Below, piece by piece: positions 6,641 to 51,846 of a stretch of 64,000 nt of DNA. The translations under genes were made by a program, and so were the position numbers. The stretch lies in contig NC_092669.1 of the NCBI RefSeq assembly GCF_032118995.1, forward strand, positions 682,001-746,000. Direction: 5' to 3'. Below the pieces are notes generated by a model. That model searched no databases and was not told the DNA's origin. It was given only the letters and a program-made list of their open reading frames with translations. How positions within the stretch are numbered: position 1 is the first letter of the stretch; each line of letters starts with the position of its first letter. Source of the DNA: Asterias amurensis (lineage: Eukaryota; Echinodermata; Asteroidea; Forcipulatida; Asteriidae).

Positions 6641-9105
6641 ACCCCTCCGACAAAGAGATTCACCTCATACACAATAAATAAAATCGATAAGCATTTTGTC
6701 TATATGATAAATCTCTATTATTGATTCTGAAGACTCGTGACAACTTGCAGTGGATTCATGTGACGTCATGGTAGATTTACAATCACAGAATGGTGTCTCT
6801 CTTTATTGGCGCCAATTGGAGCATATGCAACGATCCCATTGAAGCGTGTTAGGATCACATTGGAGCGTGTAACAATCAAATCAATTTTTATATGATGTAA
6901 AAGGAACAATAACATGAATAAATTTACGAATTCGAGAATTTTGTTTGTTTGTTTGTTCAGATGATTTCCTGTCATGGGAACACAACAAAATCAAACAAGG
7001 GGATATAAACACGAAGCTGACAACAGCCAATCTCTCTTATACAAGAAATTGGTTTAATGTGTATTTTTATGATTTGAACAAATCTGATACAAACACCAAG
7101 CTGACAACAGCCATCCCTCATACAAACATTCGTTTAATGTTTTTGATTATGAAGTGCACAAATTAAAAAATTGTGATTCAGCAGCTTGACGACAGTACTC
7201 AGTTGTAAATAGTCAGTGTAAAATCAACGACTAGCTAAGTGGACTCGAACCCATGAATAACTTTTATTTATAGTGTAATAGCTCGTAGGTGTTTTTTTAA
7301 GGAATTGTTCATTTCAAAATCAACATATAGTACAGCCTTGAAACACGCCAAACAGAGTTCCCAGTGACGCATCGTTGGCCTAGTTGGCGCAGAGGGTGCG
7401 AACTTCATTGTTGGAATATCTAATAAATCAAGCATACTAATTGGGTTTGGAGATATAGCGTTAGGTGCTTTCATAAAACTCAAAGGTTGAGTGGATTTCT
7501 CCCACAAAATGAGGACAAAGTCCACCTTATCGGAAAAAACTGCGAAACCATGGTAACTATCATGTTAATAATGGGATAAGATCTGGGATGTGCAGACAGG
7601 GTGCAGTGTCGTGCACTTTTAAACATCTTTTGGGGTGACTTGGGTCGTATAAATATAAATCAAATTGGTTTATTGCTAAACACAAATTGCAGTCCATATA
7701 TAAGGCTGAATTAAATGACATTTACAACATTAAACTCACATAATTATAATTGCATTATTAAAACTCCGTAAATCTGAGACTAAAATAATATACAGAAATG
7801 CCAACTAGAAAAGACAGTCCGTTCGAGTAGAAAATTAAAAATAAATTATAATTTTGGCCGATAAAGTAACAACAGACGGAGGTATTATGCGGCTACGACT
7901 ACGGCTACGGTTGTAGGCTCAATTCAATGTTGAAGAAAAGGACTTTTAGACATTCTAGCCATAGCCACTAGCGTAGCCATTAATTTGAACATGGCCTTGA
8001 ATTCCTATGATACAAAGTCACGCGCTTTGACGGAGGTTGGCGGGATTGTGCGTTATTTGCACGGTCAGTAAATTGGCAAGCCCAGCACTACGTCATAATT
8101 GCAAAATAAACTAAGCAACGCCCTTTAGGGCGCCACTTCTCAAAGAACTAATTTGTGTTAAGATGTATAACAATCTTAATTGATGTGACGTCACAAGACA
8201 AATCACTATGGTGATAATGACAACGTATTCTTAAGATGAATTCGTGTGTTTTTATAGATCGAATTCAGAGGGCAATTTCATAGAGCATATCTGCTTTAAG
8301 CAATTTGGCAGATGCTTTTGCTTCCCATGTACAGTTACAATTATCAGTCATAACGACACGTCACATGTACCATTTTGACTGGTATCCCGCGCTTGTTTGC
8401 TTATTAGAATGTGTTAAACATTATTTTCTGCTTGAAACAGCTATTTAATCTAGGCCCTGCTGTTTTTAAGAGAAACATGTTCACCGCTAGTAAGGTGAAC
8501 AATTTAAACATTATATTAAATTTTAACTTCGATGTGCATCAGTACCGGATTCCGCTGAAAATATTATTTATACATTTTTCGCTAGTACGACTCTTTTCCC
8601 CCTATTTATAATAACAAGTTGAAATCCCCAAACAAATAGACGGGTTCCTTTACTCAAAACCAAATCGGTAAGATACCATGCATACATGACAGTCGAGCAC
8701 TGTGTCAATGTGTAGAACATTAGGTACTAGACTTCCCAAATACTCATTTTTAGTTACATAATTTGTAATTTAAATAAAGTGCATGGCACTCGTGACATAC
8801 ATGTACTCTCTCTTTATTATTCTATCATCTTTCGTGACAGGCTACACAGTGCTGGCCTTAAGAGAAAAGTTATATGTTTCTCAATTTGTTTTGATAAACG
8901 CGTTTGGTTACTTTTTGTTGACATGATGTCAGTAAAATATAATATATTAAAGTTAAATTAACTTGTTAAAGGACTTACTGTGATTCTCTTTCAGGAGCTG
9001 AGAATTTTGAATTTTTATCTTCCCTCAATTTTCCACTCTAATTTTTGTAGTTGGTTGTTATTTTTGGCACCAATAAAATAAAAACTTGTTTCTTTCTTTC
9101 TGCAG
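6641..9105. other. Intergenic DNA upstream of tetraspanin A
   Basis: No coding exon was found. A fragment at about 7888-7985 carries the CTACGACTACGGCTACGG repeat that recurs near 15,645-15,720, probably a MITE terminus. A first non-coding exon and the promoter of tetraspanin A should lie somewhere here, but I cannot place them. Confidence 0.5.
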
Positions 9106-9139: not shown

Positions 9140-12100
9140 ATGGTTGAAGGTTGTGGAGCCACACTTTCTAAGATGATTCTTTTCGTCTTGAATGCTCTCG
9201 TATGGGTAGGTTAAACAAGAAGCTGTATAGGGCCTTCTTTTATGCTTTTATTTTTTTTTTATTTTTTTTTTTTTTTCGCTTAAATGGTTGTGTTCTAAGA
9301 CCTTATGCACATGACATCATTTGAGTATAGGGCGCCCTCGCCGTTTGGTAATTGTCAAAGACCCATATTGATTCCCACTTGGTGTACCCCAACAATTATG
9401 TGTAAAATAACAAACCTGTAAAAGTTTGCAAGAGAACAATTAAAGAAGAAAAAAATCCCTCATTCCATTACTTTGTGTGCTTTCTTTAGATGCATAATAC
9501 ATGGCCTCAGCTGAAGTCTTTTATTATTTGAGTGAGAACTTACCTCTTTCTCAAAGTATAAGTTACTTCAGAGGGAGCAATTTCTCACATTGTGTTGTAC
9601 TATCAACAGCTCTCCATTGCTCGTTACCAAATAAGTTTTTTACTGCTAACAAGTTTTTGAGTCATCACCAACAGTGTCAAGTGCCTGTAAGCATTTATCT
9701 TTGTACCAATGGTACCTTCATCAATAACGCTGAATTTGAGATTGTATTTTTATTTTCATAAATTACATTCTCGCGTCATTATTCACGAGCATAATGATGT
9801 TAATCATTATTGTCGTGTCGTGTAAAGAACTTTTCCCCTTCGCGCATATAATTCATCATCATTATCTACGTCAATGCTCCAATCATTGAAGACTTTATTT
9901 GGTCTTCCAGTTGCCCTTGTAACGGAAATTGAAATGCGCCTCTTCCCATAATGTCAACAATGACGTCATCCTGTATGAAATATCATACCTGACAAGAATA
10001 AACATTTATTTTAAGCTGTATGGCCAGGGTAGCATGTAAACCTATAATTATTCCAAAAGTGCAATTTTCGTACATGTACACTCAATAAGTGGCAAAAAGA
10101 TACCATAGACTTTAGGATGTACCATGGCACCACACATTAGCATTACTTTTTTGTTTGGTGATGAAAAAGACTTAGGCCTAACATTACTTACAAAAACAAT
10201 AATAGAATTTTGAAAAACCAAACATTATAGATAATTGGCAATTTCAGTTCAAAACGCAAATAAAAAACGGATACTGGGAAACAGTGAGTGGCAGACAAGA
10301 TACGGGGCAAACAATAATTGACACGAGTAACATCTTTATTCGTAGTGATGGTTTAAATAAGGAACACGGGTGTCTGAACATATAATGGTGTCGGAACATA
10401 TAATGGTGTCGGAACATAGGGGTGTCTGAACATGAATAACCTTCAGGCACCAACGTACGTCATAATATGCAATGGGTCTTTTTGAGAGATTTCTTTTCTA
10501 CAACCTCAACCTCTATCTATGTTTTTTTCCTCGATCTCCAGGTGGTGAGCATTGCTCTGATTGCTCTTGGTGCGTACGTGCTCGCCAATCAGGGTGAATT
10601 TGCGGGAGTTTTTGGCAATAACGCCAACGCCCTGCTAGCAGTGAGCTGCACAGTCCTTAGTGTAGGGTGCATGATATTCTTGACGGCTTTCTGCGGTTGT
10701 TGTGGTGCAATTAAAGAGAGCAGCTGCCTTCTGAAAACGGTTAGTATTAAGACGACTGTCATCAGGCCGTCAATGAGGGTGCGTGTGGTAGTCCATACTG
10801 TAGTACACAATATTCTCCCCCATCCATCCTTTTGAGATTGGAGTGAAATTTGTTGCCTTCATATAAAAACAGGTTTTCCAACCAAATTTCCCTGTGGTTT
10901 TCAAGATAAGCCAAAAACAGCTGAATACCAGTAACAGGCAATATACATCAAATGGAGATTTTGTGCTGTTTTTATCAAGGAAGAAATGTTATGCTAAGCA
11001 AATTTTAGTGCTTAGTAGCTCTATGAAATTGGGCCCTGAACGCTCGGCCACAACACGCCACTGTGTACAGTACAAAAATATTTTTTTTTCAAATGTCTTT
11101 TCTTTTCTCAGTACATCGGTATCTTGATTATTGTGATCCTTGCGGAAGTCATTGGAGGAGTCTTGGCTCTTGTCTTCAGAGGATCCGTAAGTTATCTTTT
11201 TTTGTTTTACCCTTTCTTAAAGGCACTGGATACTATTGGTAATTGCTGAAAATAATTATTGCTATTATTATTTAGAGACAACATAGCGTAAGTCTGCTGA
11301 CATGAAGCGTCCCGAACGTCCCCTAGTAGTACCATTTTTAGAATGTCTAGAGAACTTCTGTTCCAGCCATCAGAACAAGAATTGTGCCCACCCCCCCCCC
11401 CAAAAAAAAATAATAATAATAATAATAAATATATAAATAAATAAATAAATAAAAATATATCAAAAAGGTATTTATCCGTTATCTGGCTGCCAATGTCGCC
11501 CAGTTGTCCAGCATGAAATATCAAGAAGCTCTAAAAAAAAAAAATTGACAAATGGTGTCAGTCATTGCCGTAGGTCCGGACCTGTTGCAATGTTGGACAA
11601 GATTTTACAAGGGACCCTGAACACACCAAAAGTTGCTGTCATTTCACACGATGTATACATTTTGTAAAATTGCTACAATTTGTAACCATGCTACAATTTT
11701 AATAGCGAGGGACCCTTGCTAATTTGCTCTCGCATGAGAGAGGCTTAACTTTCTCACTTTTGCTACCTACAGATTCGAACTGTCCTGTCGGATGAGATGC
11801 AGACACAAGTCACAAAGTCGTACGGGGAAGACGGCCAAGAGACAGTGACGAAATTTTTGGATGCTTTCCAGTCGGTAAATATACAAAATCACCAAAAAGA
11901 AGTCTAGTTGTGTTTGTTTGCTTTCTTGTTTGTTGACAGCTTAGTGACATTCAACAAACCTTGGTTAGAAACCAATACAACTTGGTGACAATCAACACAA
12001 CTTGGTGACAATCAATACAACTAATCAATACAACTTGGTGACAATCAATACAACTAATCAATACAACTTGGTGACAATTAATGTAACTTGGTGACAACCA

Positions 12101-15100
12101 ATACAACTAATCAATACAACTTGGTAACAATCAATACAACCTGGTGACAATCAATACAACTTGGTGACAATCAACACAATTAATCAATACAACTTGGTGA
12201 TAATTAATATAACTTAGTGACATTCAACAAACCTTGGTTAGAAACCATTACAACTTGGTGACAATCAACACAACTAATCAATACAACTTGGTGACAATTA
12301 TTATAACTTGGTGACAATCAATACAACTTGGTGACAATCAACACAACTAATCAATACAACTTGGTGACAATTAATGTAACTTGGTGACAATCAATACAAC
12401 TAATCAATACAACTTGGTGACAATCAATACAACTAACAACCTATACAACTTGGTGACAATCAATACAACTTGGTGACAATCAACACAACTATTCAATACA
12501 ACTTGGTGACAATCAATACAACTTGGTGACAATTAATACAACTTGGTGACAGACAATACAACTTGGTGACAATCAATACAACTAATCAATACAACTTGGT
12601 GACAATTAATGTTACTTGGTGACAATCAACACAACTAATCTATACAACTTGGTGACAATTAATGTAGCTTGGTGACAATCAATACAACTAATCAATACAA
12701 CTTGGTGACAATCAATATAATTTGGTGACAACCAATACAACTTAATGACAATAATCAATACAGCTTGGTGACAATCAATACAACTAACAACCTATACAAC
12801 TTGGTGACAATCAATACAACTTGGTGACAATCAACACAACTAGTCAATACAAATTGGTGACAATCAATATAACTTGGTGACAGTCAATACAACTTGGTGA
12901 CAGACAATACAACTTGGTGACAATCAATATAACTTGGTGACAGTCAATACAACTTGGTGACAATCAACACAACTAATCAATACAACTTGGTGACAATTAA
13001 TGTAACTTGTTAACAACCAATACAACTAATCAATACAACTTGGTGACAATCAATACAACTTGGTGACAATCAATACAACTAATCAATACAACTTGGTGAC
13101 AATTAATGTAACTTGTTAACAACCAATACAACTTGGTGACAATCAATACAACTTAGTGACAGTCAATACAACTTGGTGACAATCAATACCACTTGGTGAA
13201 AATTAATACAACTTAATAATAATAATCAATACAACTTCGTGACAATCATGCTTCACAGCCGATATTTATATACACATTATTTCATGTAGCAAAATTATTG
13301 CTTTCCGTGTAATTTTGTTCCAAAAGGAAAACACCATCAGTAACTCTATCAGTATTTATTATTTAATATTTTTGTTAATGTTGTTCTTAACAGGGACAAA
13401 AATGCTGTGGTGTGGAAAACTACACCGACTACTCGGGCAGTGCGTTCCAAACAGCTAACCCGGGGAAATTCGTTCCAGCAAGCTGCTGCAAAAAGGAGAC
13501 GGATACCTGCAATAACGCAAACGGAAACGACATAGCTGATCCAGCCCTCATTTACAGCGGTCCTAAAGAAGTAAGTGTCACCTATTGACCCAATTCACCT
13601 GACGTCATCATCCGAATAATCTTGGATGCGCCATTTTGGTAGTCAATGTCAACGTGTGTTACTCAGTGAATTTGCTCACCAATCTTGTACTGAACTACTA
13701 CTTGCAGGATACCAGTGAATTTGCTCACCAATCTTGCACTGAACTACTACTTGCAGGATACCAGTGATTTGCTCACCAATCTTGCACTGAACTATTACTT
13801 GCAGGATACCAGTTACAGACAATGCATGTTGATTCATTACGCCCAGAGTTATGTGCAAAATATGTTGACCTGGACAGGTGTCGAATGCAATTATGTCCTC
13901 TATGCAATAATATCCGGAGGACATTATTGCACATGCAACAATGTCCGCCGGACGATTTTGCATATGCATCAATGTCCGCCGGACGGTTTTGCATATGCAA
14001 TCATGTCGGCCAGGACGTTGCTGCATACTGCAATTGTGCCCACCCGGACACATTTGCATACGCAGTTGTGTCCGCCCCGTGCAAAACCGTCCTTGTAATA
14101 AATTAAACGCCCTTGGTCGACGAAACACAATTGCCATTGTTTTACAAGCTACTTAGTGCATGTCATGAATGACATGGGATGTTCGGCCGTTGGGTATTCG
14201 CTGCAATCATATACAGTCTTGTACATGTCCACCGGACACGATAGTATAAATGCAAAAGTGTTCGGAGCGGACAGTTTTGCACGGCGGACACAGTTGCATC
14301 TGACACCGGCTTGGTTCAGCGCACAATTGTAGTTTGTAAAATGACGTCACACTTTGCTTAATAGCGAGTGAAATTAATACAGATTATTAGGATCACTCGT
14401 TTTGAAATCAACCCGGACTAGGATAAAGGTTGCCAAACGAATACTCGCGAGTATTTTACGGGACTCTCATACCGCCAGAGCAATATGTAGTCTTACCTCA
14501 AGTCTGTACTTAGGAGCATAATCGCATCCATCCACATCGTACCAAGATCAACCTACATTTTTATTCGTTACGCTTTGTTTCTTACAGGGTTGCCTTCCAA
14601 AATTGGTGAAATTCTTCGAGGACAACTTCCTGTATATCGGAGCTGCGGCACTTGCACTAGTCGCCTTTGAGGTAAGTTCACACGGCTTGAGAAACGTCTA
14701 CAGAATAGTTACAGGGGCCCAATTTCATAAAGCCTGTAAGCACAAAAATTTGGTTAGCATGAAATTTCTTCCTTGATAAAAACAAGATTACCAACCAAAT
14801 TTTAATGTGTTGCATATTGCTTGTTACTGGCATTCAGCTGTTGTTTGCAAAATCACATGGAAATTTGGTTGGTAAATCCTGTTTTTATTAAGGAAGAAAT
14901 TTCATGCTAAGAAAATGTTTGTGCTTACAGGCTTATCAGTTTAATTCGATATCTCCGTTTCAGATAAAGAAGACTTTTCTGTTGTGATAAGAGTTTTGTT
15001 TGAGCAATGTCTGCCGAAAGGCGGAGTTTGTGAGGATATGTTCCCTTCTTGTGTTTGCCAAAGACGGTTTTGTTTTTCGTTACGTGCAGCATGAGTTTTT

Positions 15101-15924
15101 GTGAAAGTGTTGCGAGAAAGTTTGTCCTTTTTGGGATTTCTTCTGTCAGCAGTTTCTCACCATATATAGTTCATAAAAAAACTAATTATTTGGGGTTGAA
15201 CACGATTTGACTAAAGCGGGACTTGAACATTGGACCTCCGGATCAGTTCGTGGTGATCCACTTTAATAAGACTGTTTTATAATTTTAAAACAAACTCGCA
15301 GTTTAATGTTTTTGTTCTCCGTGAGCAGAGTGTTAACCTAACGTTGTATGTGTTGTTGCTGTTTCCAATTCCCTTTAGATATTCTCTTGTATCTTTGCAT
15401 GCTGTGTCATCAGTGGTATCAACAAGGACGAATACACCTAAATAACAGGTCTGCTCATTGGCCACCAGTCATGTCACATGTCTCATCCTACATCACTCAT
15501 CGACCAATCACAATCCATATTACTTAGTTACAAACCATGTTGTTTAGTGCGTCCAAAACACCACATGTGACTTTAAATCATTGTGTTCGTGCGGCAAGAT
15601 AGCACCCGAAATGAGCCTTGGGGTTGTAGGACACTACTGTAGTCAACTAACATAGCCGTAGCCGCTCAACCTAGACACTGTAAACAATAGCTGTAGCTGG
15701 TCGTAGCCAGTAGCCACAAAAGCACATACTGTACATATTATATAAACCATGACATCATTAAAGGTTGACACAACGATTACGTGCGCATAATCCACGCCAA
15801 GGAAAGCTTAAACTTGCAACGATATTGCTCGCAATAATCACGTTTTCTTCATTTCTCACAGATACTGGCGTGCATCTTTGCTTGCTGCGTCATCGGAGGC
15901 ATCAAGAGGGGAGAATACGAGTAG
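9140..15924 (+). CDS. Tetraspanin A (CD63/CD9-type), alternative last exons
   Basis: A four-pass membrane organiser that builds tetraspanin-enriched microdomains. Coding exons, all separated by phase-0 introns with GT/AG ends: 9140-9205, 10542-10739, 11112-11186, 11773-11874, 13394-13570, 14588-14671, then either 15379-15441 or 15862-15924. Either choice gives 254 aa. TM1 is about residues 12-37, TM2 51-76, TM3 89-111, and TM4 begins near 221. The TM2-TM3 turn holds FCGCCGAIKESSCLL. The large extracellular loop has the diagnostic CCG (151-153) and the SCC pair (178-179), with Cys186 and Cys208 completing six cysteines. The start ATG at 9140 follows an acceptor at 9104-9105, so 9106-9139 is 5' UTR. 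The family is certain; orthology to a named tetraspanin is not. Confidence 0.93.
9345..9690. mobile_element. Eroded MITE, family alpha, in tetraspanin A intron 1
   Basis: Shares GGTAATTGTCAAAGACC, ACTTCAGAGGGAGC, CAACAGCTCTCCATTGCTCG and the terminal GTGTCAAGTGCCT with alpha copies elsewhere. The left end is lost. A long T-run (about 9249-9276) lies just upstream. Confidence 0.6.
10370..10432. repeat. Short tandem repeat, about 19-bp unit
   Basis: Four imperfect copies of a unit of the form GGTGTCTGAACATATAAT lie 110-170 bp upstream of tetraspanin A exon 2. Confidence 0.7.
10862..11036. mobile_element. Partial MITE, family eta
   Basis: The right part of a foldback element ending in ATGAAATTGGGCCC. 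It contains the family landmarks CAGCTGAATACCAGTAACA, TTTTTATCAAGGAAGAAAT and TGCTTAGTAGCTC. The left terminus is missing. It lies in tetraspanin A intron 2. Confidence 0.65.
11390..11460. repeat. Low-complexity C, A, (AAT)n and (AAAT)n run
   Basis: A C-run is followed directly by an A-run, then AAT and AAAT microsatellites, in tetraspanin A intron 3. It follows a damaged alpha-type terminus at about 11,219 (TTAAAGGCACTGGATACT). Confidence 0.8.
11940..13245. repeat. 1.3-kb minisatellite, 20-bp unit, in tetraspanin A intron 4
   Basis: A tandem array built on CAACTTGGTGACAATCAATA (20 bp), interspersed with a shorter 13-bp variant CAACTAATCAATA and with ATTAATGTAACTTGGTGACA variants. Larger blocks are themselves repeated: the CTTAGTGACATTCAACAAAC segment at 11,940 recurs at 12,213, and the AACAACCTATACAACTTGG segment near 12,435 recurs near 12,785. 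It fills most of the 1.5-kb intron. Without unique spacers or an equal-length repeat and spacer plan it is not a CRISPR array. Confidence 0.95.
13668..13816. repeat. Three tandem copies of a 49-bp unit
   Basis: Units start at about 13,668, 13,717 and 13,766 and contain CTCACCAATCTTGCACTGAA and ACTACTTGCAGGATACCAG. Each copy carries an acceptor-like CTTGCAG, about 100-250 bp downstream of the exon 5 donor. Confidence 0.9.
13890..14320. repeat. GC-rich palindromic repeats, about 32-bp unit
   Basis: Repeated TGTCCGCCGGAC palindromes alternate with TTTTGCATATGCA palindromes, giving a chain of small dyads. The array decays to the right (ACCGGACACGAT, GCGGACACAGTTGCAT). The symmetry leaves open reading frames on both strands that I do not regard as genes. 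Confidence 0.8.
14714..14940. mobile_element. MITE, family eta, in tetraspanin A intron 6
   Basis: Foldback element. The left terminus is GGGGCCCAATTTCATAAAGC; internally AAATTTCTTCCTTGATAAAA is mirrored by TTTTTATTAAGGAAGAAATT. The right terminus is eroded near 14,940. Better copies are at 17,318-17,563 and 44,516-44,736. Confidence 0.75.
15379..15441 (+). CDS. Tetraspanin A terminal exon 7a (tail ...NKDEYT)
   Basis: A 3' splice site (TTTAG) opens a 63-bp phase-0 exon that finishes TM4 and encodes a cytosolic tail ending GINKDEYT, then TAA. ATTAAA near 15,758 is a possible poly(A) signal before the next exon. Included in the gene entry; listed apart because exon 7b has the same length, phase and role. 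Confidence 0.85.
   Translation: MFSCIFACCVISGINKDEYT
15862..15924 (+). CDS. Tetraspanin A terminal exon 7b (tail ...KRGEYE)
   Basis: A second 63-bp phase-0 exon after CTCACAG, 483 bp beyond 7a. It encodes the same CIFACCVI membrane stretch but a different tail (GIKRGEYE, then TAG). ATTAAA near 15,982 is a possible poly(A) signal. The shared middle and diverged tail identify a tandem exon duplication. Confidence 0.85.
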   Translation: MLACIFACCVIGGIKRGEYE

Positions 15925-17317
15925 TTCGTGCCAGCTAGCTAACGAGTAGTTCATGTCATATCAGTGTGCCTAATTGTTATTATTAAATCACACATTATTT
16001 TATTTAAATTCCAGCTTTTCAAATTTTCAACTTTGGCGCCTTACAAAACGAAACTGCAACTCAGGCCCTTCTTAGTTTTGCTTATTGCATTTAGCAATTT
16101 TTGAATTAATATCAACATTTACTATTGATTTTTGTTTTGTTTTGTTGAAACCGTTAATTTGCATGCAGTTTTGTTTTTATATTTTGTATAAAACTTCACG
16201 TGTTATCTTGTCGTGGCCCTTTTTGAAACCACGGCTTTGGATTCGGCTTTGGCTAGCTTGGCCCCGCGGTTGTTTTTGACAATTTGAAGGTGCTTTACAT
16301 TACGTGCTCAGGGCTTCAGACGAGAGAACGGAGCCGGAAGCCAAATCCAAATCCGAAGCTGTGGTGTAAAAAGCAACATGTTGTTTAAACAGATGAAGAA
16401 AACATACTTGGAAGAAGAGGGAAAACCGATAGAATGAAAAATAAAGTGATGATTTATAATTAGGATCTGACTTTTTGAATTTTGAACCGAAAGGGATCAA
16501 ATTGAACCTGCCCTATTTAGCATAAACGCGTTTCAGCCGCTCAATTTTTTACCAATCAGGTCGCTTGTAGTATAGCTGTAGGACCTTCCTTTTTTTACAC
16601 GAGACGTATGATAGGGCAGTAAGCAAAACCGTCTTTACATGTTACGCAGTTCTTGTTAATGTCAACGTAAGTAGGATTTGAAACTTTCAACTTTAATGTC
16701 AACTTACATTTGTAGAAATTTAAGTATTAGTCAGGCTTACATAATCGCTCAAAAAAAAGGCGGACGAAACGTGATACCTTTAAAGGATATTATTTCGTTG
16801 GATGATGCCATAATTCGAATGGGGTGTTCAACCCAAACTAAAACTTCCTGAAAGTTAAATCCTCAATGAAAGACGAGCGCCCTCTAGTGACAATGTTTTG
16901 GCGGTTGGATGAGACGAGTTTTCGACCCTATCTCAATATCGCACAGAAGGAACACCTGGAAAGCAGGAGAGTTTGGTCGAATGCCCCTTTAAATAATTTT
17001 AAAGAGACAATTATAGTGATTATAATCCTTCTATAATCCTTGTAATGATAATTATTTAAAAAATAAAGAGAAATTCAAATAAAAATTTATCTTTGATAAT
17101 TGAAATCTAAATTGTAAAAAAAACCGATAGGATCAATTTGTAACTACAACGTAATACTTTCAGCATAGAAAACCCGTTGACGAACGCTGTATAAAATAAA
17201 CCAAAAAAAAATACAACTAAATGTTCTTTTCCTCTCAATTTTGTTATCAATTGTCACCGCTACCCTCCTAAATCAGAATGGTTTAGCCCATGACGTCACA
17301 GATACTCTCCTTTATCT
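15925..17317. other. Gap between convergent genes
   Basis: 3' flank of tetraspanin A. No exon seen. GCGCCCTCTAGTG at 16,877-16,889 resembles a CTCF-type core. Otherwise the sequence is AT-rich with no recognised repeat. Confidence 0.5.
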
Positions 17318-17563
17318 GGGCCCAATTTCATAGAGCCGCTCAGCACAAAGATTTGCTAAGCATGAAATTTCTTCCTTGATAAAAACAGGATTACCAACAA
17401 AAATTCCATTTGTTGCATATTTCTTGTTACTGGTATTTAGCTGTTGTTGCTTATCCTGAAAATCATGTGGAATGGAAAATTGGTTGGTAATCCTGTTTCT
17501 ATCAAGGCAGAAATTTCATGCAAAGCAAATATGTGTGCTTAGCAGCTGTATGAAATTGGGCCC
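17318..17563. mobile_element. MITE, family eta, complete
   Basis: A 246-bp foldback with both termini present: GGGCCCAATTTCATAGAGC on the left and GTATGAAATTGGGCCC on the right. The arms mirror over most of their length (CCTTGATAAAAACAGGATTA against AATCCTGTTTCTATCAAGG). It lies between two direct copies of CCCATGACGTCAC (about 17,287 and 17,577). No coding capacity. Confidence 0.85.
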
Positions 17564-18237
17564 AGATAGTTAAAACCCATGACGTCACTGATGTCTGAGC
17601 ATGCAATGTAAGACACTCTCAGTCCAACTCAGTTACTTTAACTCATCTTTGTTTTAATGTTCAATCAATAGCAACAAATGTCATGGTTCTCAGTCTTATA
17701 ACGAATAAACATACAAAAAGAAAAAAAAAAAACTATACACAAACGACATGTTTACAAAACAAATGCAATAAGCAAGTTTAAAAATGTGGTTTTACGTAAT
17801 GAGTGGCCTCTTGCCAGCAGGGCTTTCTCTCCAGACTAAGCGCGGTGCCCATGTGAGCATATCCGCAACATTTTACATCATAAAATCCAAATGGTTTATT
17901 TCCTTACTTCTCCAGCACAGCCCCCCCCCCCCTCCTCCCCCCCCCTTCCCCCAATTCCAAACAACAATACTGTCTTTCTTTTTCTTTGATTCGAGTAGCA
18001 CACGTCCGTACCAGAAAGTAATAGCAGAAGTTTAAAATCTATTACTTAGAAGCAGATTATTCATCCTAAAACATCCTTCTGTTGGCATAAACCCTTTTAT
18101 CTTCAAGTACGCGCTAATCCTCCAATCAGATTGGCAGAATGGAGTGATGATAAAAACCTATATTGCACGGCTAATATCACTACCATGCGTCTTGTGTGTT
18201 CTATGTCACGCGCCAAGTTTGCTTGAAGATAAATACG
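17564..18237. other. Gene-free stretch with C-rich low complexity
   Basis: Poly-C/CT tract at about 17,920-17,952. An inverted pair TTATCTTCAAG / CTTGAAGATAA (about 18,099 and 18,222) may be the termini of a small decayed element. No gene. Confidence 0.5.
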
Positions 18238-33534: not shown

Positions 33535-36500
33535 ATGGGATCATCATATGATAAGGAGCCATGTTGTGGCATCTCTCTTCTTAAGTACATCCTCTTCATC
33601 TTTAACTTCTTCCTCCTAGTGAGTCTTCTCAAATCTTTCTGCCACCTTTAAACAAAAGTTAAACATCAAGCCCCGTCAGTCTTGTGGATTTTTACCCCAA
33701 ATTCGAGCCCTGTGTCAACCTGATTGGATTACCTTGTAAAATGCACTCACACAAAATATATTGTTATGATTGTTTGGTAGAGGATAGGCCTAATACCTTC
33801 ATGGATAAATCCCCAAAAGATCTTCTACCTTCATCTAAAAAATATTGACTGGAGATACAATATGTCGACTTTCTCCATAAGACGATCAGAGCATACTGAT
33901 CGAAACGTCAAGTTGAAACCAACAGTTCTTTTCAGAACCACCCCAACTCATTAGAGATAGTCATTACATGGTGTTACCGCAAACATTTCTATATCGTATT
34001 TCCACCATGCAAAGTTTCAAATCCTACTTAATATGTCGACTGTGACAAGTCTAGTTGTTATTTTGGAAATCATAGAGATCAGTTGTTTACATCATACATT
34101 GCTGTAAGTGGACATTTCAGAAGATTCTGAAGTACTTTTAGATTTCATTTGCTTACTAGAAATGGAAAATCACATATAAGCCATATTTTTTACCATTTCC
34201 ATGTTGTAAATAAGGAAGGAAATGGACTTATTTTACAGAATGCTTATTTATTTTTTATTTTTTATCTAGCTCGGTGGTGCAGGCGTTTGTGGCATCGGAC
34301 TCTGGACTCTACTCAAGAAATGGGACTACGCTAGCCTGCTGTGCGATGACCTCTACACAATATCAACTTACGTTCTGATCATCTCGGGTGGTGTGATCAT
34401 TATCATAGCTGCATTGGGGTGCTTTGGCGCTCAACAAGAACACAAATGCTGCCTGCTTATTGTAAGTGAAGTCAGGAGACAAGACTTTTGGTTTTCGATG
34501 ACCGTATTTGGCTGTTGAAGCCACTCACCCTGGGATCAGTTTTAGTCACTGACATGAGCACTAACTAGTATCAAAACAAAAAACAACTTTAAGGGGAGGT
34601 ATGATTATGTTTGGTTATTACTCCTACAATTATGGAAATACAAAACTTACTTGGCTAGGTATGGCAGCTCTTGATTGTTTCAAGCATTTTGAGAAACATT
34701 TCACTTCAAATAAGTAATGTGGTTATGGAAAAAAGATAATTTTGTTGTCCCAAAACTTTTAATTTGAAACAGGTTACTGTCAGATGTTATGTTTCTCAGA
34801 TAGTGTATTCCATTATTACAGAATATTCTTCCTGCATGGGTATAACAGCTCACGATCTCTCAAAAGTGCTACCGCCTTTTACAATGAAATTTTAACAGGT
34901 CAATTGCATTGTATAAATCTACATTTATGTAGGATTTAATCAATCAAAAGTACACTTTGCCTTTTAAGGCAAAGTGTACTTAAAAAGGGGGCAGATAGAG
35001 GCTTTAAACGTTTCAGATTTCTTTGATGGCAATTTGATTTGGTCTTTCAGAAATAGAAGCAGAATTTACCATGAACTACAAATACTATTGAACTTTTTTG
35101 ATCTTTTGTTATTTTTCCCTCCCTGCAGTATTTTACATTTCTGCTCTTCCTGTGCTTAGGAGAGCTGGTTGTTGGAATTTATGTTTACATCTACAGGGAA
35201 TCGGTAAGTATTATTATATTAGTTATTATTTAATTTATTTATTTGGTTACACTTTACACTGGCAAACCACTAAAAGAAACTAGATATTCAGAGTTTGTCT
35301 TCAGACAAACTTATGTGTTTGGCTCCAGAGAGTAAAATGCTTGTGAGCATTTAAAAAATGTTTTGTTCTCAAGATATGTTGAAAATGGTCAAAATTATGT
35401 TGGGCCCAGTTGATTGGGAAGGTCAAAACCATCACATTTTGAGAAGGAAAAAACATATTTTTCCACACATTCAAAGGTTTTTTTGTAACAAGTCAACATT
35501 ATGTAAAAACAAGTCCTCTTTTTTTTCAGGTGAATATGGAGTTAGAACGATGCTTGAATGAGACGATTGTTGCCAATTATGGTATGAAGGGACAGAAAGA
35601 ATTCACCGAAGCCTATGATGATCTCCAGAGAACCGTGAGTATTTTGATTTTTTTTCAAGAACAATTACCACCAGTAACTGAGTATGAAACTAGAGAGAAA
35701 TGTTCAGTTTTGGAGGAAAAACCCGACCACATGTAAGGCTTTGGTCCGAGCATCTATTACATGCATTACACAACACACTGGACCTACAGCTTTTATGTTC
35801 CATCCAAAGGACAAAGCAACAATGGTTACACTGAGACTCAAAGCCACACCAGAGTTTGAAATCTTTGCGCTTAACTGCTCAGCAAATACACACAGTACAG
35901 AATTCATACCTGTAAGAACTTTAAAAATATGTATTCCCAACCTGCCAATCGGTGAGTCTGACATGGTCTAAACTAAAGTGAGCCAGCAGTTGCAAGTTCC
36001 CTTTGCTGATGCGTTTTAGAAACAAACATGTTATTCCACTGTCTTCAAAGGGATTCTTTCCAACAATTAAAGTTGCAATATTAGTTTAAAAATCCAATCT
36101 ATCTGTTTCACTTCCTACTTGTATAGTTCCAATGCTGTGGCGCTGCAAGTTATGCCGACTACCAGCTATGCCAATGGAAAGTGAGTGGTAATGCTGGTAA
36201 CCTGAGTGCCCCAGATAGCTGCTGTAAAACGGAGAGCAGCTACTGTAGCGTGAGAGACCATCCGTCAAATATCTACCACTTGGTAAGTCACTGGTTCCCA
36301 AAGTCATCTCGTAAGCATTTGCTTTGTAAAGTCACTGGTTCCCCCGAGTCATCAAACAAAATTCACGATATGCTATAAGTCACTGGTTCCCAACGTCATC
36401 TAGCAAGAGTTTACTTTGAGAGTGATTAACCCTCACTTTAATTTGTTTGGGTAGGTATTATTGCATTCCTTAGCAGCAAAGACTGTGAATTTTCAGTCTC

Positions 36501-39299
36501 AAGCACCATTGTTAGTTCTTGGGTACACAAATACAGAGAGGAGCAAAATTGAAGCGGAGTTTGTGTTCAGATGTTTGATGTCATTTCAGACAGTTTATGA
36601 TGCAACATGGTGACTGATTGATCAATATGTTTTTCCTTGACATAGGGGTGTGTGGATGGACTCGCTAACTACTTCAGCGGACATCTGGCCATTATCGGTG
36701 CGGTGTGTGTAGCAATCGCCGGTGTACAGGTAAGATAAAGACATAAAGACAAACAGAGCATTCATAAGGACGTGTAACCACAAGGTTGTGGGTTCGAATT
36801 CTACCAAGCTAACTGCTGATTTCACAATGACTAGAATTGTCGACTAGTTACCAAATCACAATTTCTTGTTTTGTGCAATTTATAATCTATGAGGTCGTTC
36901 ACACGCCGTACTAAAGTTGGTCTAAGTCCACTTAGACCGGTTCGGGTTCAACTTTTGTGCGTGTGAACGCAAATAAAGTTAGACCGGATCGGGTTTAAAC
37001 CCCAAAACTTAAACCGTCCAGCGAGGCGGTCTAAGTCTAAACCGGTTCGGGTTTATCTTTTAACACTGCGTGTGGACAGAATGACATCCAGTTTTAACTC
37101 ACAACGGACGACCCATTGTGTGGTTCAATGCACACGCCCGGGACCCGGAGTGCTTGTATACGGTTTCTGTTGCCTCTGATGCTGAAAAGCACCGAGTATT
37201 TATATTACTTTCTTGCCGCTTACCGAGTTGGCGAAACCCTCTCGATCGGTGTATGCAGTTTAACACAGGCCCACGCCCATGATTTATTAAATTCTGAAAC
37301 AAAATTATATTTTCCAAGCTTTTTTTGTGTCCTATAATAAATTGAAACTGTTTTTCATGCGTATACTACGAGGGCAGCGAAGAAGCATATTTTTTAATGC
37401 TTCTCACGTGTACAGCGGTGCCATCCCATAGTTATCCATCACCGATCCCGTGGATGTGCCTTTCTATTGCCGTTACCGTTACTAGCGTGTTGTACTTTCA
37501 ATCTAGGAGAATGAACTGCAGTGGGCGCGAGGCTGTGTGTAGGGGAAATTCCCTACGCCAGCAATATCACCACGTTGTTGGGAAGTTGGGAAAATACTGC
37601 GAAGTACATGTATTTACGTAATTTGCACGTGTGTAGTTGTGTTTATGAACGAATCGGAATAAAAATCGCGGCACCAGCTTTTGAGAGATCGCAGCTTCCA
37701 ATCGATTGAAGTACAAACTAAAAGTATTTATTAAATCGGAAACAGTGGTATAAAACAAAACGCACAAATGAAACGTGTTCTGTTTCATGGAATATGGACC
37801 ATATTTTGGTGAGTTTTCTCGGCGGTTTGTATCAATATTTTGTTTGTTTAAAAAAAAAAAAAATTTGAGTCGTGTTTATGTTTGTTTTAAGTGCCCATAT
37901 CCTCCCAACGGTAAAACTGTTACCGCGTTTGATTTGGCCATTTGTATCCAATAATTATGCCCTGATGATCATCCAGGGCATGGGGCACTCAGTATCTCGG
38001 CATACTCGGTGCATGAATCTGATGAATAAAACCGGATGTTAGAGCAACGGGGTCGCGTCTACTTTGACCTCTTAAAACCGAAGATAAACCGGATCGGGTT
38101 TAACTCTGTGCTGTCTGAACGCAAGGGTTTTTTATTTTTACGACCACCCCCCGCTGCTCGTAAAAGTTAGACCCGCGGTTCGGGTCTAAGTTAGTACGCT
38201 GTCTGAACATACCCATAGACATTTAACCAATGTGGGTATGTTCAGACAGCTTACTAAGTTAAACCCGAACTGGTTTAACTTCTATGAGCAGCAGGGGGTG
38301 GTCGTAAAAATAAAAAACTATTGCGTTCAGACAGCACTGAGTTAAACCCGATACGGTTTATCTTTGGTTTTAAGAGGTCAAAGCAAACACGACCCTGTTA
38401 CTCTAACATCCTGTTTATTGGCCTGTCCATGTTCATTGGTCACCATGTGTTCACCATGGGGTCTTTTTATTCTGTCCACACACAATGTTAAAAGATAAAC
38501 CCGAAGCGGTCTAAAGATAAACCCCCTCCCTGGACGGTTTATCTTTTGTGGGTTGAACTCGATTCGGACTAACTTTAGAACCGTTCAGACACACTGAGTT
38601 GAACTCGATCGGGTTAAACCATGAGTTAAACTAACTTTAGTACTGTGTCTGAAGTACCAGCTTGATGTTTATATCCCATTGCACGCACTGCAATTTCCCT
38701 CTGGCTAGGGACACGTATATGAGAAAAATGTAAATTTGTGTTTGCAAAGGGCACCCCAGAAATAGCACAGGGCGCCCTGGCAACTGCTGTGGGTGCCGTG
38801 AGCCAATTTGAGGCCTGCCCTTGTTGGAGTTTTGTCAAAGTCCCCTTGACAGGAAGATCACACAAACAAACAAACAGATTCAAACATCTATTATAATATC
38901 GTTGCGGTACCCGCTGCCAAAGCATAGGATTCGAACTGCCTCTAGCTACCGGGCAATCTCATTAGTCTAGTTGGTAAGACACTGCTCTAGAGTTGCAAGG
39001 GTCGTGGGTTCGAATCCCACCCGAGTAATATGCCTGTGAAATTTTTTCACAGGACTTTGGAAAATACCAAGTATACAATGCCAACACACATCGGTGTATG
39101 AGTAAAAACCAAAATTAATATTCTTTATTCCCAATGCAAAGTTAACATCCATTATACTCAAATTTAAAACCAATGAATTGTCTACATTTTCTTGATGATT
39201 AATTTAATTTTATTTGTTTTTTCTATGCAGATATTTGGTTTGATCTTCTCGATATGTCTCTACTGTCATCTTAAGTACGAAGAACAAGAGCCGTACTAA
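33535..39299 (+). CDS. Tetraspanin B, CD151/TSPAN11-like
   Basis: Four-pass tetraspanin of the CD151 group, which in vertebrates binds laminin-receptor integrins. Exons, all introns phase 0: 33535-33618, 34270-34461, 35129-35203, 35530-35634, 36127-36282, 36646-36729, 39231-39299; 254 aa. It opens MGSSYDKEPCCGISLLKYIL with palmitoylatable cysteines next to TM1. TM2 runs into GCFGAQQEHKCCLL. The large loop has CCG (155-157), SCC (183-185), C192 and C206. The run RDHPSNIY (195-202) closely follows the CD151 loop; the integrin-contact QRD of human CD151 is VRD (194-196) here. The tail YCHLKYEEQEPY keeps a YxxPhi sorting motif (YCHL, 243-246). The group assignment is strong; one-to-one orthology is not proven. 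Confidence 0.94.
34948..34981. repeat. Perfect 34-bp palindrome in tetraspanin B intron 2
   Basis: Two 16-bp arms, AAGTACACTTTGCCTT and AAGGCAAAGTGTACTT, are separated by TT. The perfection suggests recent origin, perhaps the fused termini of an internally deleted hairpin element. Confidence 0.85.
36765..36888 (+). mobile_element. tRNA-derived SINE fragment
   Basis: A B box GGTTCGAATTC at about 36,791-36,801 is followed by a SINE-like body with GACTAGTTACCAAATCACAA. The A box is weak. It starts about 35 bp after the donor of exon 6. Confidence 0.45.
36893..38213. mobile_element. 1.3-kb inverted-repeat element (twin 1)
   Basis: The left end GGTCGTTCACACGCCGTACT and the right end GTACGCTGTCTGAACATACC are related inverted termini. 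The subterminal regions are crowded with TTAGACCCGAACCGG-type repeats. An internal segment of about 0.9 kb (37,110-38,030) is unlike the ends and richer in GC. No transposase was recognised in it. It occupies tetraspanin B intron 6. Confidence 0.7.
38234..38650. mobile_element. 417-bp inverted-repeat element (twin 2)
   Basis: Begins GGGTATGTTCAGACAGCTTA and ends TTTAGTACTGTGTCTGAAGT. Its left part matches the right end of twin 1 in reverse (GCAGCAGGGGGTGGTCGTAA) and its right part matches the left end of twin 1 in reverse (GTTAAAAGATAAACCCGAA). It is an internally deleted relative, placed head to head with twin 1 and 20 bp away. Confidence 0.75.
38955..39140 (+). mobile_element. tRNA-derived SINE
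   Basis: The A-box-like TAGTCTAGTTGGTAAGACAC and a perfect B box GGTTCGAATCC (39,007-39,017) inside a paired T-arm are followed by a body with a TGTGAAATTTTTTCACA hairpin. The acceptor stem does not pair, so this is a SINE rather than a tRNA gene. It ends about 90 bp before the last exon of tetraspanin B. Confidence 0.7.
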
Positions 39300-43718: not shown

Positions 43719-43941
43719 GGGTGCGTTCGTTTAGCTTCCCTGGGTCGACCCCGTTGTGTGGCAGGTTTTTTTTCCAGGACGAACGTGGGTAATTATCTAC
43801 ACACGTTTGTCCTGGAAAAAGAAAACGCCACACACCGGGGTCGACCCGGGGTAGCCCCACTTCTGTGGCCAAGGATTCAGCTATCCTTGACCACACAAGT
43901 GGGGCTAGACCCGGGGCCGGGGAAGCTAATCGAACGCACCC
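43719..43941. mobile_element. 223-bp multi-hairpin element (copy A)
   Basis: Termini GGGTGCGTTCGTTTAGCTTC and GAAGCTAATCGAACGCACCC are inverted. Inside are two further hairpins: TTCCAGGACGAACGTG against CACACGTTTGTCCTGGAA, and GCCCCACTTCTGTGG against CCACACAAGTGGGGC. The duplicate is at 51,408-51,630. Confidence 0.85.
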
Positions 43942-44157
43942 ACTGTATTGTTATTGTAGTTACATCCCACATAATGGTGCATGCGTATGTGCACCTGGCG
44001 TGGTACGTGCGTTATTATTTTCTAAATCTAATCTCAACAAAAACTAAAAAAGCATGCACGCTTATTACAAAAACCGTGGACGCTAACTTAAGCAAGTTAG
44101 AAATACACACAATAACTGTTTAGTAAATTTATAAATTAGTGAAATTAAGTTACGTAC

Positions 44158-44520
44158 CAATTTAGAACAGACGATTGCTGTATGAACGATCAGATCCAGA
44201 TTTTGTTGTACTGTTTAAAAATGCCCCCGCGATCGAGCGAGCGAGAAGTTTCACATGGCGCCCTCTATAGTCATAAGCCACCGTGGTGACGAGAGGGATG
44301 GGCGGGGCTGCGTGAGTGGAGACAACACCCCCTCCCTCTGCTGTGTTCGTTAGTTTGTTTGTTTGTTTATTTGTTTGTTTGTTTGTTTGTTTGTTTGTCT
44401 GTTTGCTTGTTTGTTTTATTTTTGTTCAGTGCAAAAATGAGTGATTTCTCCAGCTGCAGCCTCGGCAACTAAATCGGAAACGTGTTCCGTCCGTCATCTT
44501 GAACTGGGCCCAATTTCATA
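44158..44520 (-). promoter_or_regulatory. Presumed ZNF1 promoter and first non-coding exon
   Basis: A CpG-rich patch (44,225-44,325) with a GC box (GGGCGGGG) stands out in AT-rich DNA. A minus-strand donor GTACGT at 44,157 would close a first exon that could splice to the acceptor at 43,205. A (GTTT)n microsatellite lies at 44,351-44,415. The role is inferred from composition and position. The duplicate (51,847-52,205) lies upstream of ZNF2. Confidence 0.35.
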
Positions 44521-44736
44521 GACCTGCTAAGCACAAACATTTGCTTATCAAGAAATTTCCTCCTTGATAAAAGAAAAACAGGATTGATTTCCATTTTTTG
44601 CATATAATTGTATATTTTGCAAAATCACAAGGAAATTTGATTGGTAATCCTGTTTTTATCAAGGGAGAAATTTCATGCTCAGCAATTTAAGCAATGTTTT
44701 GTGCTTAGCACTAAGCAGCCCTATAAAATTGGGCCC
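44516..44736. mobile_element. MITE, family eta (copy A)
   Basis: Both termini kept: GGGCCCAATTTCATAGACC and CCCTATAAAATTGGGCCC. The arms TCCTTGATAAAAG and TTTTTATCAAGGGAGAAATT mirror each other. The duplicate is at 52,203-52,445. Confidence 0.85.
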
Positions 44737-44944
44737 TGATGCCCCAGGTATCAGGTGGTTTCCTTTAGTAATAATTAAATAATTAAATCAATATATAAAA
44801 TAAAGAAATAAAAAATATCAATGAATAAAAAATAATAAAAAAAATTAAAAAATTAAGGTCACTTTAGTTTAACCAGAGGATGTCCATCAATGGTGTAGTT
44901 TTTCAGTAAAAGGGTTAAAACAACCAAATCAAAACAAATTGAAG

Positions 44945-46090
44945 GTTCTTTATTTGTATTCCAAAATTATTTTTTATTCCCATTTGGCCCTGCGAACAAG
45001 CTAACATGTTAAAAGTAAACATAAAATCACATGATACAATTACGATATAAAAATTACGTAAAACATTAAAGAATGTTACGGAAAATTAAAAGCAATAAAA
45101 TTACTAACAAAAAATAAGAGTAAAAAAAAATAATACAAGAGTAAATTTTTACTGTCACAGAAGATGATAAAATGATAATGTACAATAATACAAGGCTGGA
45201 AAAACTGCTAAGAAGTACAAAAAAGCGACTCACAATATGTACAGAGTATAAATTAAAGGAACACGTTGCCTTGGAGCGGTCGAGTTGGTCTTTGAAAAGC
45301 GTTTGTAACCGTTTTTTATAAAATACATATAGGTAGAAAGATGTTGTAAAAGTATAATACAATGATCCACACAAACATGCCTCGAAATTGCGTGGTTTTC
45401 CTTTTACCTCGTCGACTAACACGTCGGCCATTTATGGGGGTCAAAATTTTGACCCCCATAAATGGCCGACCATGTTAGTTCGCACAGTAGAAGGAAAACC
45501 ACGCAATTTCGAGGCAAACTTGTGTTGATCATTGTATTCTACTTTTAAAACATCTTTCCAACCATATGCATTTTATAAAAAACGGTTACAAACGCTTTTG
45601 TTTTGACCAACTCGTCCGATCCAAGGCAACGTGTTCCTTTAAGCGATTAAGAAATCAAAAAGCTCGGTTTTAAAAACAGAGAGGGACTCAATTTTCCTCA
45701 GACTAATTGGCAGATCGTTCCACATTTTGGCCCCAGAAAAGGCAAAGCTTGAGCACAAGCTTTCTGTCTTTGCCATGGGAACTCTCAGAGTAAGGTTGTC
45801 ATTTTGTCGAGTGGAACGGCTGTTCGTGCAATGGTTGAATAGTTTTGCCATGTACTCTTGGCATAGATGATGAATGCATTTATACACGAGCATATTTTTT
45901 CATACAAATTCTCTCGGCAAAAGCTAACCAGTTCAGTTCATTAAACATATCAGTCGAGGAAGTTCGGTAGGGGCAACCAAGGATTAATCTGGCGGCTCTT
46001 TTCAATAGTCAGTTCAACAGGTCACTCTATGCGTTGTATCGGCCTCCCCAAACCGTACAACAACAGACTCGGTAACAAAAAGTTGTAACC
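44945..46090 (-). mobile_element. LINE 3' fragment (copy A)
   Basis: On the minus strand the C-terminal end of a non-LTR retrotransposon polymerase protein is readable in pieces: LLLYGLGRPIQRIE, LLKRAARLILGCPYRTSS and, ending at 45,646, FAFSGAKMWNDLPISLRKIE. The CR1/L2-like pattern is R-SFAFSGAK-WN-LP. The 3' UTR follows to an AATAAA-bearing end near 44,945. At least two frame breaks separate the pieces and the whole 5' part is absent, so it is dead. A beta MITE splits the 3' UTR. Confidence 0.75.
45253..45642. mobile_element. Full hairpin MITE, family beta (copy A only)
   Basis: 382 bp (45,257-45,638) between TTAA at 45,253-45,256 and 45,639-45,642. Left AGGAACACGTTGCCTTGGAG, right CCAAGGCAACGTGTTCCT. 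The arms, about 190 bp each, meet at a centre reading CAAAATTTTG. Copy B lacks the element and holds a single TTAA at 53,210-53,213. Confidence 0.95.
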
Positions 46091-46162
46091 CACGTATGCA
46101 TATGCAATCGTGTCTGGGGTGAAAAAACCTTTCGGTGGACATAAAATGACTGTACATCATAC

Positions 46163-46284
46163 CGAATATCAGTAACAAGCAATATGCAACAAATGGAAAT
46201 TTGGTTGGTAATCCTGTTTTTATCTAAGAAGAAATTTCATGCTAAGCAAATTTTTGTGCTTAGCAGCTCTTTGAAATTGGGCCC
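46163..46284. mobile_element. Half MITE, family eta (copy A)
   Basis: Starts abruptly at ATATCAGTAACAAGCAATAT and ends TTGAAATTGGGCCC; only the right half is present. The duplicate is at about 53,585-53,706. Confidence 0.7.
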
Positions 46285-46320
46285 AGATCTACTTGTTCTA
46301 TTCTAAACAAACATAGTCAA

Positions 46321-46685
46321 TTAATAAACTGGACACTATTGCAGTATTGGTAATTACTCAAAATAATTGTTAGCATCAAAACCTTCTTGGTAACGAGCAA
46401 TGGAGAGCTGTTTATAGTAATGGTTTAAAACATTGTTATACGGCTGCCTCTGAAGTAACATAATTTTTGAGAAAGAAGTAATTTTCACTTAAATATTTGA
46501 ATTGAATTTGAGAACTCAGTCTCGAATTCAAGCATTTGAAAGCACACTTGCTTGTGTGACAATGGTGTATTTCCTACCATTGGTCTCTCGCAACTTCGAT
46601 GACCAATTGAGTCTAAATTTTCATCAGTTTTGTTCGTTATTGTATGCAAATGTTGAGATATAACAAAGGTGTCCAGTGCCTTTAA
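46321..46685. mobile_element. MITE, family alpha, damaged left end (copy A)
   Basis: The left end reads TTAATAAACTGGACACTATT and the right GTGTCCAGTGCC then TTAA (46,682-46,685). The duplicate is at 53,743-54,107. Confidence 0.8.
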
Positions 46686-46744
46686 AAAAAAAATTGAACA
46701 CTTAACCATTGAAAATTATATTCCCTGTAACAACTGATCTATTC

Positions 46745-47140
46745 TAAACAGGCACAATTGGTAAATGGTAGTTACTCAAAATAATTATTAGCATCAAAAC
46801 CTACCTGGTAACGAGTAATGGGGAGATGTTGATAGTATGACACATTGTGAGAAACGGCTCCTGCTGAAGCAACATAGTTTTTGAAATAGAAGTAATTCTC
46901 ATCAAAATATTTGAATTAAATTTGAGACCTCAGCTGAGGTCTAGAACTCCAGCATTTGAAAGCACACTTGTGCAACAATGGTGTTTTTTCCTTCCATTAT
47001 TCTCTTGCTACTTCGACGACCAATTGAGTCTAAATTTACCCCTTTTTTGTTATTTTATGCATACATGTACATGTACATGTATACAGGTATGTTGAGATAC
47101 ATCAAGTGAAAATACAATACCGAAGGTGTCCAGTGGCTTC
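46745..47140. mobile_element. MITE, family alpha, diverged (copy A)
   Basis: Recognised by TTACTCAAAATAATTATTAG, GAGAAACGGCTCCTGCTGAA and GGTGTCCAGTGGC. Contains a (TACATG)n stretch. The duplicate is at about 54,178-54,565. Confidence 0.7.
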
Positions 47141-47789
47141 AAAATAAAAATTATGAACACATAATTATTAAGAATTATATTCACTGGGACACCTAATGTT
47201 CTTGTTCTATATATTCTAAACATACATAGTCAATTAAAATAAAATTTATGGTTACAAAACTAATGAGAAGTCTATTCCCTGTGACACCAGTTCTACTTTT
47301 TCATAATTCTTAAAATACTTAGGCAATTAAAATAAAAACAATTGGTTACAAGATTATTAGAATTTTATTCCCTAGAACAACGGATGTACTTGTTCTGTTC
47401 TAAACCAGTCATCTAAGGGAAGCTTTCTACTATCATTATCTTCAAACTGTGTGAGTTTAATGTATATCTTTCCTACAAAAAGTACCCAGACCCTTGTTCA
47501 GTCACAAGTTGACTGACCCCATACTGGATATCATTGATTGGGTCTGCAATCTAAGCTTAAAGGGTTACGTTGCCTTGGATTGGGCGAGTTGGCGCTTGAA
47601 GGCGCTTGAAACCGTTTATTATGAAAACATGCCTCAAAGTTGCATGGTGTTCCTTAATACAACACGTGAACTAACACATTCAGCCGTTTTGTAGTTAAAA
47701 AAGTAACAGGAAAACCACGCCATTTCCATGCATACTTCATCCGTGTTCCCAAGTTTCGTTGAGCATACTGCTTAGTTAGAACGGATCAT
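47141..47789. other. ZNF2 3' flank with MITE relics
   Basis: Right half of a gamma element at 47,413-47,494 and an eroded beta element from TTAA at 47,557-47,560 (AGGGTTACGTTGCCTTGG) to about 47,740. These probably lie in the ZNF2 3' UTR. No gene. Confidence 0.55.
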
Positions 47790-49253: not shown

Positions 49254-49946
49254 GTTCAAAAGTTATTTTAAAACATCATTGCCAACATCACAAATAAACA
49301 GTTTCCCCTCCTCCGTGCGAGTTCGATTTATGATTTAATTTACATCAGCGTCTTTAAGTTCACAGTGGTTGATGACTTTAAAGTCGCAGTGTTACATCAC
49401 TCATCTGCAGAGAAGGCAGAAACAAAACGTGAATTTTTCTACTAATAATTTAATATTATTATTTTTATTATTATTATTATTACTCAAATGACTTTAGTAT
49501 AGGCTTTTGAAATCAATCAATCAATCAGTCAAAGGTCAGATGCTGGAGAACTACTTCTAGCTTAGAAACTATAAGCTCACCCTTTCTAGAAGTATTGCAG
49601 AACAGTTAAAAATACCACTTGATCATCTGAGTTTTTCCATAAAAAAGAAAAGGATGAGGGCATGTTTTTGTTTTTTCTTTTTTCTTTCAAAGGTGGCCGC
49701 CAAGCATTTATATTCAAACTTGACACCAATTATTCCGTAAAATCACCACTTACTTTATGTAGTTTGTAAAAGATTAGTAAGTTGAATGAAAAATGAACGT
49801 AAAATTTGTTTTTTTGAAAACAAAATGTAAATTAAAAAAATAATTAAACAAAGGATGCGGCCTCAAAATAGGATGGGGACGATTAACTTTTGGCCTTATT
49901 AAAGCATTTTCAACATAAAAGCTCTCTCCAATGGTTTTTGTTTCGT
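49254..49946. other. ZNF2 upstream region (copy A)
   Basis: Contains (ATT)n at 49,455-49,480 and a 46-bp relative of the micro-MITE at 49,553-49,598 (TACTTCTAG ... CTAGAAGTA). No coding sequence. Any promoter here would be ZNF2's own, because copy B has the same region upstream of ZNF3. Confidence 0.45.
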
Positions 49947-51630: not shown

Positions 51631-51846
51631 ACTGTATTGTTATTGTAGTTACATCCCACATAATGGTGCATGCGTATGTGCACCTGGCGTGGTACGTGCG
51701 TTATTATTTTCTAAATCTAATCTCAACAAAAACTAAAAAAGCATGCACGCTTATTACAAAAACCGTGGACGCTAACTTAAGCAAGTTAGAAATACACACA
51801 ATAACTGTTTAGTAAATTTATAAATTAGTGAAATTAAGTTACGTAC

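Follow-up and report, generated by a model that had tools for sequence, protein, structure and literature searches.

A tetraspanin gene with two last coding exons

We analysed a 64-kb stretch of the starfish genome (C22:682001-746000, referred to as the window, with all positions given within it unless another locus is named), which carries a tetraspanin gene with a duplicated last exon on its plus strand. The gene was rebuilt by eye and by script as seven coding exons running from position 9140 to either of two last exons, 7a or 7b, with GT and AG at each junction and with all six introns in phase 0, and the resulting gene model is intact. The limits of the transmembrane segments (TM) in exon 2 were set by family comparison rather than predicted.

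9140..9205, plus strand: coding exon 1, with the ATG; MVEGCGATLSKMILFVLNALVW; donor GTAGGT
10542..10739, plus strand: exon 2, end of TM1, small loop and TM2
11112..11186, plus strand: exon 3, TM3
11773..11874, plus strand: exon 4, start of the large extracellular loop
13394..13570, plus strand: exon 5, large extracellular loop with the CCG and CC motifs
14588..14671, plus strand: exon 6, last cysteine of the loop and first half of TM4, ending in VAFE; donor GTAAGT
15379..15441, plus strand: candidate alternative last exon 7a, IFSCIFACCVISGINKDEYT, then stop
15862..15924, plus strand: candidate alternative last exon 7b, ILACIFACCVIGGIKRGEYE, then stop

The 5' untranslated part of exon 1 may open at a candidate AG at 9104-9105, read by eye. 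The predicted 7a and 7b isoforms, 254 residues each, match Pfam PF00335 with E values of 3.5e-50 (residues 11-245) and 3.3e-50 (residues 11-244), respectively, and for the 7b isoform TSPAN7 is the best solved relative (1.5e-24). The tetraspanin cysteine signature is present in the translation as GQKCCG ... SCC ... C ... GC. Six phase-0 introns are described as the typical structure of animal tetraspanin genes (PMC2650405), and the starfish gene matches this consensus by intron count and phase, positions not being aligned.

Intron 4 is mostly filled by a minisatellite of about 71 copies of the 20-base unit ACAACTTGGTGACAATCAAT (11936-13248). An intronic inverted repeat with 74-nt arms that are 85% complementary lies at 14730-14934, and a similar element was seen by eye to recur near 17330-17580. 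Farther along the window, a block of more than 5 kb occurs twice in tandem (43758-49482 and 51447-56739, about 7.3-7.7 kb apart), each copy with a minus-strand C2H2 zinc-finger ORF (489 and 433 aa) and matching tandem repeats.

The initial annotation had described 7a and 7b as two phase-0 exons 483 bp apart with a common core, separate stops and separate tails, following an exon 6 with its donor at 14671. Their coordinates and all of these particulars held when the sequence was re-read: exon 6 ends at 14671 with GTAAGT next, and the two exons, 63 nt each and both in phase 0, are spaced 483 bp start to start with 420 nt between them. Each consists of the inner half of TM4, a tail of its own and a stop of its own (TAA and TAG), and is preceded by a pyrimidine-rich AG acceptor (16/20 pyrimidines in both). 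The proposed duplication was confirmed as well, since 7a and 7b are identical at 45/63 bases and 13/20 residues and align with a score of 46, compared to a maximum of 21 in 300 shuffles. Homologous, in a common phase, equally placed after the shared exon 6 and each with its own stop, 7a and 7b are homologous last exons of one gene, and the duplication is real. This anatomy, the homology, the open frames and the acceptors were observed directly.

A 14-position last-exon profile, trained without both exons and scanned over selected stretches of the genome (212 kb in the main scan), placed 7a 10th and 7b 11th among 10,345 AG-opened 14-codon frames, behind nine frames that all belonged to the training set. 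The 13 best frames were all proposed last exons; the four outside the training set were 7a (22.6 bits), 7b (21.5 bits) and two in L029 (18.1 and 15.9 bits). No unassigned frame scored above 12.3. A degenerate pattern of the shared core had exactly two matches in the whole assembly (491,506,623 bases, 23 contigs), namely 7a and 7b. A DNA search with 76 nt around 7a returned 7a itself only; because it missed 7b, this search is insensitive and says little about further copies.

Several alternatives were considered and rejected. A recent copy or an assembly error does not fit 71% identity with unrelated flanks. No third copy of the exon rose above background in the 64-kb window, where the only other profile match was the last exon of a second tetraspanin gene. 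Nor does 7b look like the remnant of a neighbouring gene: among the matches listed, there is no further tetraspanin exon between 7a and 7b, and the next tetraspanin gene in the window begins near 33.5 kb, downstream of 7b.

The two exons differ at 17 of 60 coding bases, with 4, 3 and 10 differences at codon positions 1, 2 and 3, corresponding to a dN of 0.23 and a dS of 1.25 (NG86; two other methods yielded no value). Their 300-base flanks are at shuffle level, the upstream score being reached by 83/300 shuffles and the downstream score by 209/300, and a similarity-based repeat match spans only 15377-15435, that is, the AG and most of exon 7a. Third codon positions hold most of the differences and the flanks have become unrelated, so the duplication is old. 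A duplicated block that ended at the exon borders by chance is a less likely account of this pattern than drift of the flanks alongside constraint on the exons, and selection on both copies is likely its simplest explanation. In a neutral-copy simulation (1,500 runs each), 13/20 residues and an open frame were kept in 1.7%, 5.8% and 17.5% of runs when 0, 25 and 50% of the changes, respectively, fell on the functional copy; a simpler version gave 0.8% and 1.3%. As the codon simulation by itself is weaker, selection on both 7a and 7b is likely rather than proven.

One copy could instead be a relic, a duplicated last exon that is spliced no longer or hardly at all. Neutral drift of one copy reached as much as 17.5% in the simulation, which leaves this reading some room; moreover, the poly(A) signal for 7a is not above chance (see below) and the nearest paralogue showed one last exon. 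Yet exon, acceptor, frame and stop position were kept in both copies while flank similarity was lost, and a neutral copy of that age would be expected to drift like its flanks. We therefore regard a relic as rather improbable. That both exons are used as alternative last exons of this gene is the reading we hold to be probable, and constraint on the two copies makes such use likely.

Proposed exon choice and the two possible cytosolic tails

At the protein level 7a and 7b are certain to be mutually exclusive, as the initial annotation had it, because the stop of 7a precedes 7b. An mRNA with 7a therefore encodes the 7a tail even if 7b is also present downstream. Candidate poly(A) hexamers in the region are as follows.

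15757..15762, plus strand: ATTAAA, the sole AATAAA or ATTAAA between 7a and 7b
15982..15987, plus strand: ATTAAA, downstream of 7b
16440, plus strand: AATAAA, downstream of 7b

The single hexamer between the exons is at chance level (1.07 expected in 421 nt). The best donor-like sites after 7a agree with the consensus at 7/9 (CAT/GTGACT at 15566) and 6/9 positions (CAG/GTCTGC at 15448), and the real donors of the gene do so at 6-8 of 9. By donor scores, 7a may thus also serve as an internal exon spliced onto 7b, in which case the protein would still end with 7a. As candidates for competing RNA structures, the region of this single sequence includes 14 listed inverted-repeat pairs, among them the 74-nt intronic hairpin, and these may be no more than chance.

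We propose that the gene acquired its two alternative last exons when the last coding exon was duplicated in tandem, long enough ago for the flanking introns to turn unrelated. Exon 6 would be spliced to 7a or 7b, giving two 254-residue proteins whose first 234 residues, including all of the extracellular part, are identical, and which would differ at 7 of the last 20 residues, in the cytosolic half of TM4 and in the short tail. Which exon is taken could depend on how the two acceptors compete, whether or not the transcript is also cleaved and polyadenylated downstream of 7a.

The tails end in SGINKDEYT (7a) and GGIKRGEYE (7b). Both have a CC pair at the inner membrane face, G-I, and E-Y near the end, and they differ mainly in charge. 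Neither the 7a tail (DEYT) nor the 7b tail (GEYE) contains a YXX-phi motif or a simple PDZ ligand, and neither has a C-terminal GYXX-phi signal of the type found in CD63, where it reads GYEVM and acts as a YXX-phi signal (PMC5297682). YETV and YEVV do occur in two paralogues of the same genome, for each of which a single last exon was found. The canonical signal is therefore present among the tetraspanins of this genome and absent from both tails.

This bears on the initial annotation, which had read the locus as one gene with two cytosolic tails that switch one extracellular domain between two destinations. The duplication and the two possible tails are supported; the switch is not. With the canonical signal missing from both tails, the specific argument for two destinations is gone and the general one stays: in C. 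elegans, isoforms of TSP-14 with different N-termini reach different membranes (PMC8827444), and the last exons of KRAS 4A/4B alter membrane targeting (PMC9882654). Set against these precedents, the lack of either motif in the tails and the YETV and YEVV ends of the two paralogues make separate destinations unlikely. Because the tails share G-I, E-Y and CC and differ mainly in charge, a change in the protein's partner, its palmitoylation context or its membrane domain is just as likely as a new address.

Like the two-destination reading, a further one would be a narrower form of the proposal above: both exons are spliced in fixed or noisy proportions and the tails are functionally equivalent, which is conceivable, although we consider it doubtful. 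The common CC, G-I and E-Y positions agree with this, as does the fact that no known sorting motif is present in one tail and missing from the other; against it, 7/20 residues differ, including most charged positions of the tail. If both exons are used, the main effect would most likely be a changed cytosolic face, NKDEYT compared to KRGEYE, on a shared and potentially palmitoylated CC pair. Such a change might tune membrane partners or internalisation rather than toggle a canonical lysosomal signal.

Last exons of other tetraspanin genes

Tetraspanin matches recur on C22 from about 666 to 1002 kb. The second tetraspanin gene in the window (plus strand, 33565-39299; exons near 34240-34461, 36130-36249 and 36646-36729) has a single last exon at 39231, IFGLIFSICLYCHLKYEEQEPY, then stop. 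Just upstream of that exon, a partial tRNA match (RF00005, 36.2 bits, model positions 8-63) at 38963-39020 is possibly a tRNA-derived repeat.

The last exon was resolved in ten tetraspanin genes in our profile survey, which omitted two places with Pfam matches, on C1 and C5, and in which the downstream length searched varied between genes. Eight had one last exon (the second window gene, L022, L025, L026, L040, L028/L045, L049 and L050) and two had more than one; for L049 and L050, whose exon 6 was not found, the assignment relied on the profile and on proximity. The profile found no last exon in L023, L027, L041/L047, L042, L043/L053, L046, L051 and L052, which are excluded from the ten, and L023 has a candidate by a looser rule. 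No last exon was found in L024, a neighbouring sequence, or in L048, downstream of the 5.3 Mb gene described below. The nearest paralogue, L022, on the minus strand at about 666-669 kb of C22, has 34-70% identity when compared exon by exon, and its last exon ends in SGYETV; a tetraspanin gene on C7 ends in SEYEVV. Exons 7a and 7b share 13/20 residues with each other, more than either shares with the last exon of L022 (9/20 and 11/20).

A separate gene at about 5.3 Mb on C22 has three candidate last exons, all within C22:5302118-5304460.

L029:8118-8171, C22:5302118-5302171: candidate exon i, IMGLVLSMCMYHILKKQ, ends in stop
L029:8812-8871, C22:5302812-5302871: candidate exon ii, VMGLIFSICECQALGSRRR, ends in stop
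L044:401-460, C22:5304401-5304460: candidate exon iii, VFAMVFAMCVCRGIGKAEE, ends in stop

No convincing tetraspanin exon lies between the candidates. AATAAA occurs in L029 at 8634 after exon i and at 9425 after exon ii, and also overlaps and follows exon iii. Exons i and ii agree at 26/42 bases, which none of 2000 codon shuffles reached (0/2000), while exon iii agrees with each of them at 20/42 (reached by 16 and 21 of 2000 shuffles) and with 7a and 7b at 25/42 and 23/42 (2 and 14 of 2000). Exons i and ii compared with 7a and 7b are at chance level, with 13 to 17 of 42 bases in common (227 to 870 of 2000 shuffles). On these comparisons, exon iii looks like the ordinary family type, and exons i and ii resemble a divergent pair. 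With 9/20 and 10/20 pyrimidines, the acceptors of this pair are weak, so both exons may be relics.

The three candidate last exons at 5.3 Mb hint that such duplication may be habitual for the family in starfish and not a single accident. Recurrent tandem duplication of last exons as a way for starfish tetraspanins to vary their cytosolic tails, with two exons here and separately three at 5.3 Mb, is nevertheless a tentative suggestion that we place somewhat below even chances, and it is made less probable by exon iii resembling 7a and 7b more than it resembles i and ii. If it were true, a single gene would combine one extracellular domain with any of several interchangeable inner tails.

Comparison with known systems

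If both 7a and 7b are used, the window gene would be a natural domain swap, in which the same extracellular and outer membrane part is joined to two inner tails, and would offer a direct way to ask what a tetraspanin tail does. For duplicated last exons in a tetraspanin we found no report in the accessible portions of the open-access literature; an Echinococcus tetraspanin appears in a table of alternatively spliced genes (PMC5440512). Tandem duplication of a last exon with exclusive use of the copies is itself already known, from KRAS and from Drosophila pip, PGRP-LC and CG42235. In humans, a survey of mutually exclusive exons treated the terminal ones separately, as these also depend on polyadenylation (PMC5740500).

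KRAS 4A/4B resembles the starfish gene in that its two alternative last exons are homologous and alter nothing but the C-terminal, membrane-targeting part of the protein (PMC9882654). Exon 4A has been proposed to derive from NRAS, whereas the starfish copies resemble each other more than they resemble the last exon of the nearest paralogue, and both KRAS forms are known proteins (PMC9882654), whereas the starfish isoforms are predicted from the gene sequence. The Drosophila genes pip, PGRP-LC and CG42235 likewise use their homologous terminal exons or 3' variable regions singly, but the choice there reportedly rests on competing RNA structures (PMC9013439).

Among tetraspanins, CD63 offers its GYEVM signal (PMC5297682) for comparison with the paralogue L022, which ends in GYETV; exons 7a and 7b, by contrast, both encode just one residue beyond the tyrosine, too few for YXX-phi. 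C. elegans TSP-14A and TSP-14B show that one tetraspanin gene can give two isoforms with the same extracellular loops (PMC8827444), as we propose here, although what sets those isoforms apart is an N-terminal stretch of 24 residues with a di-leucine motif and not a duplicated last exon (PMC8827444).
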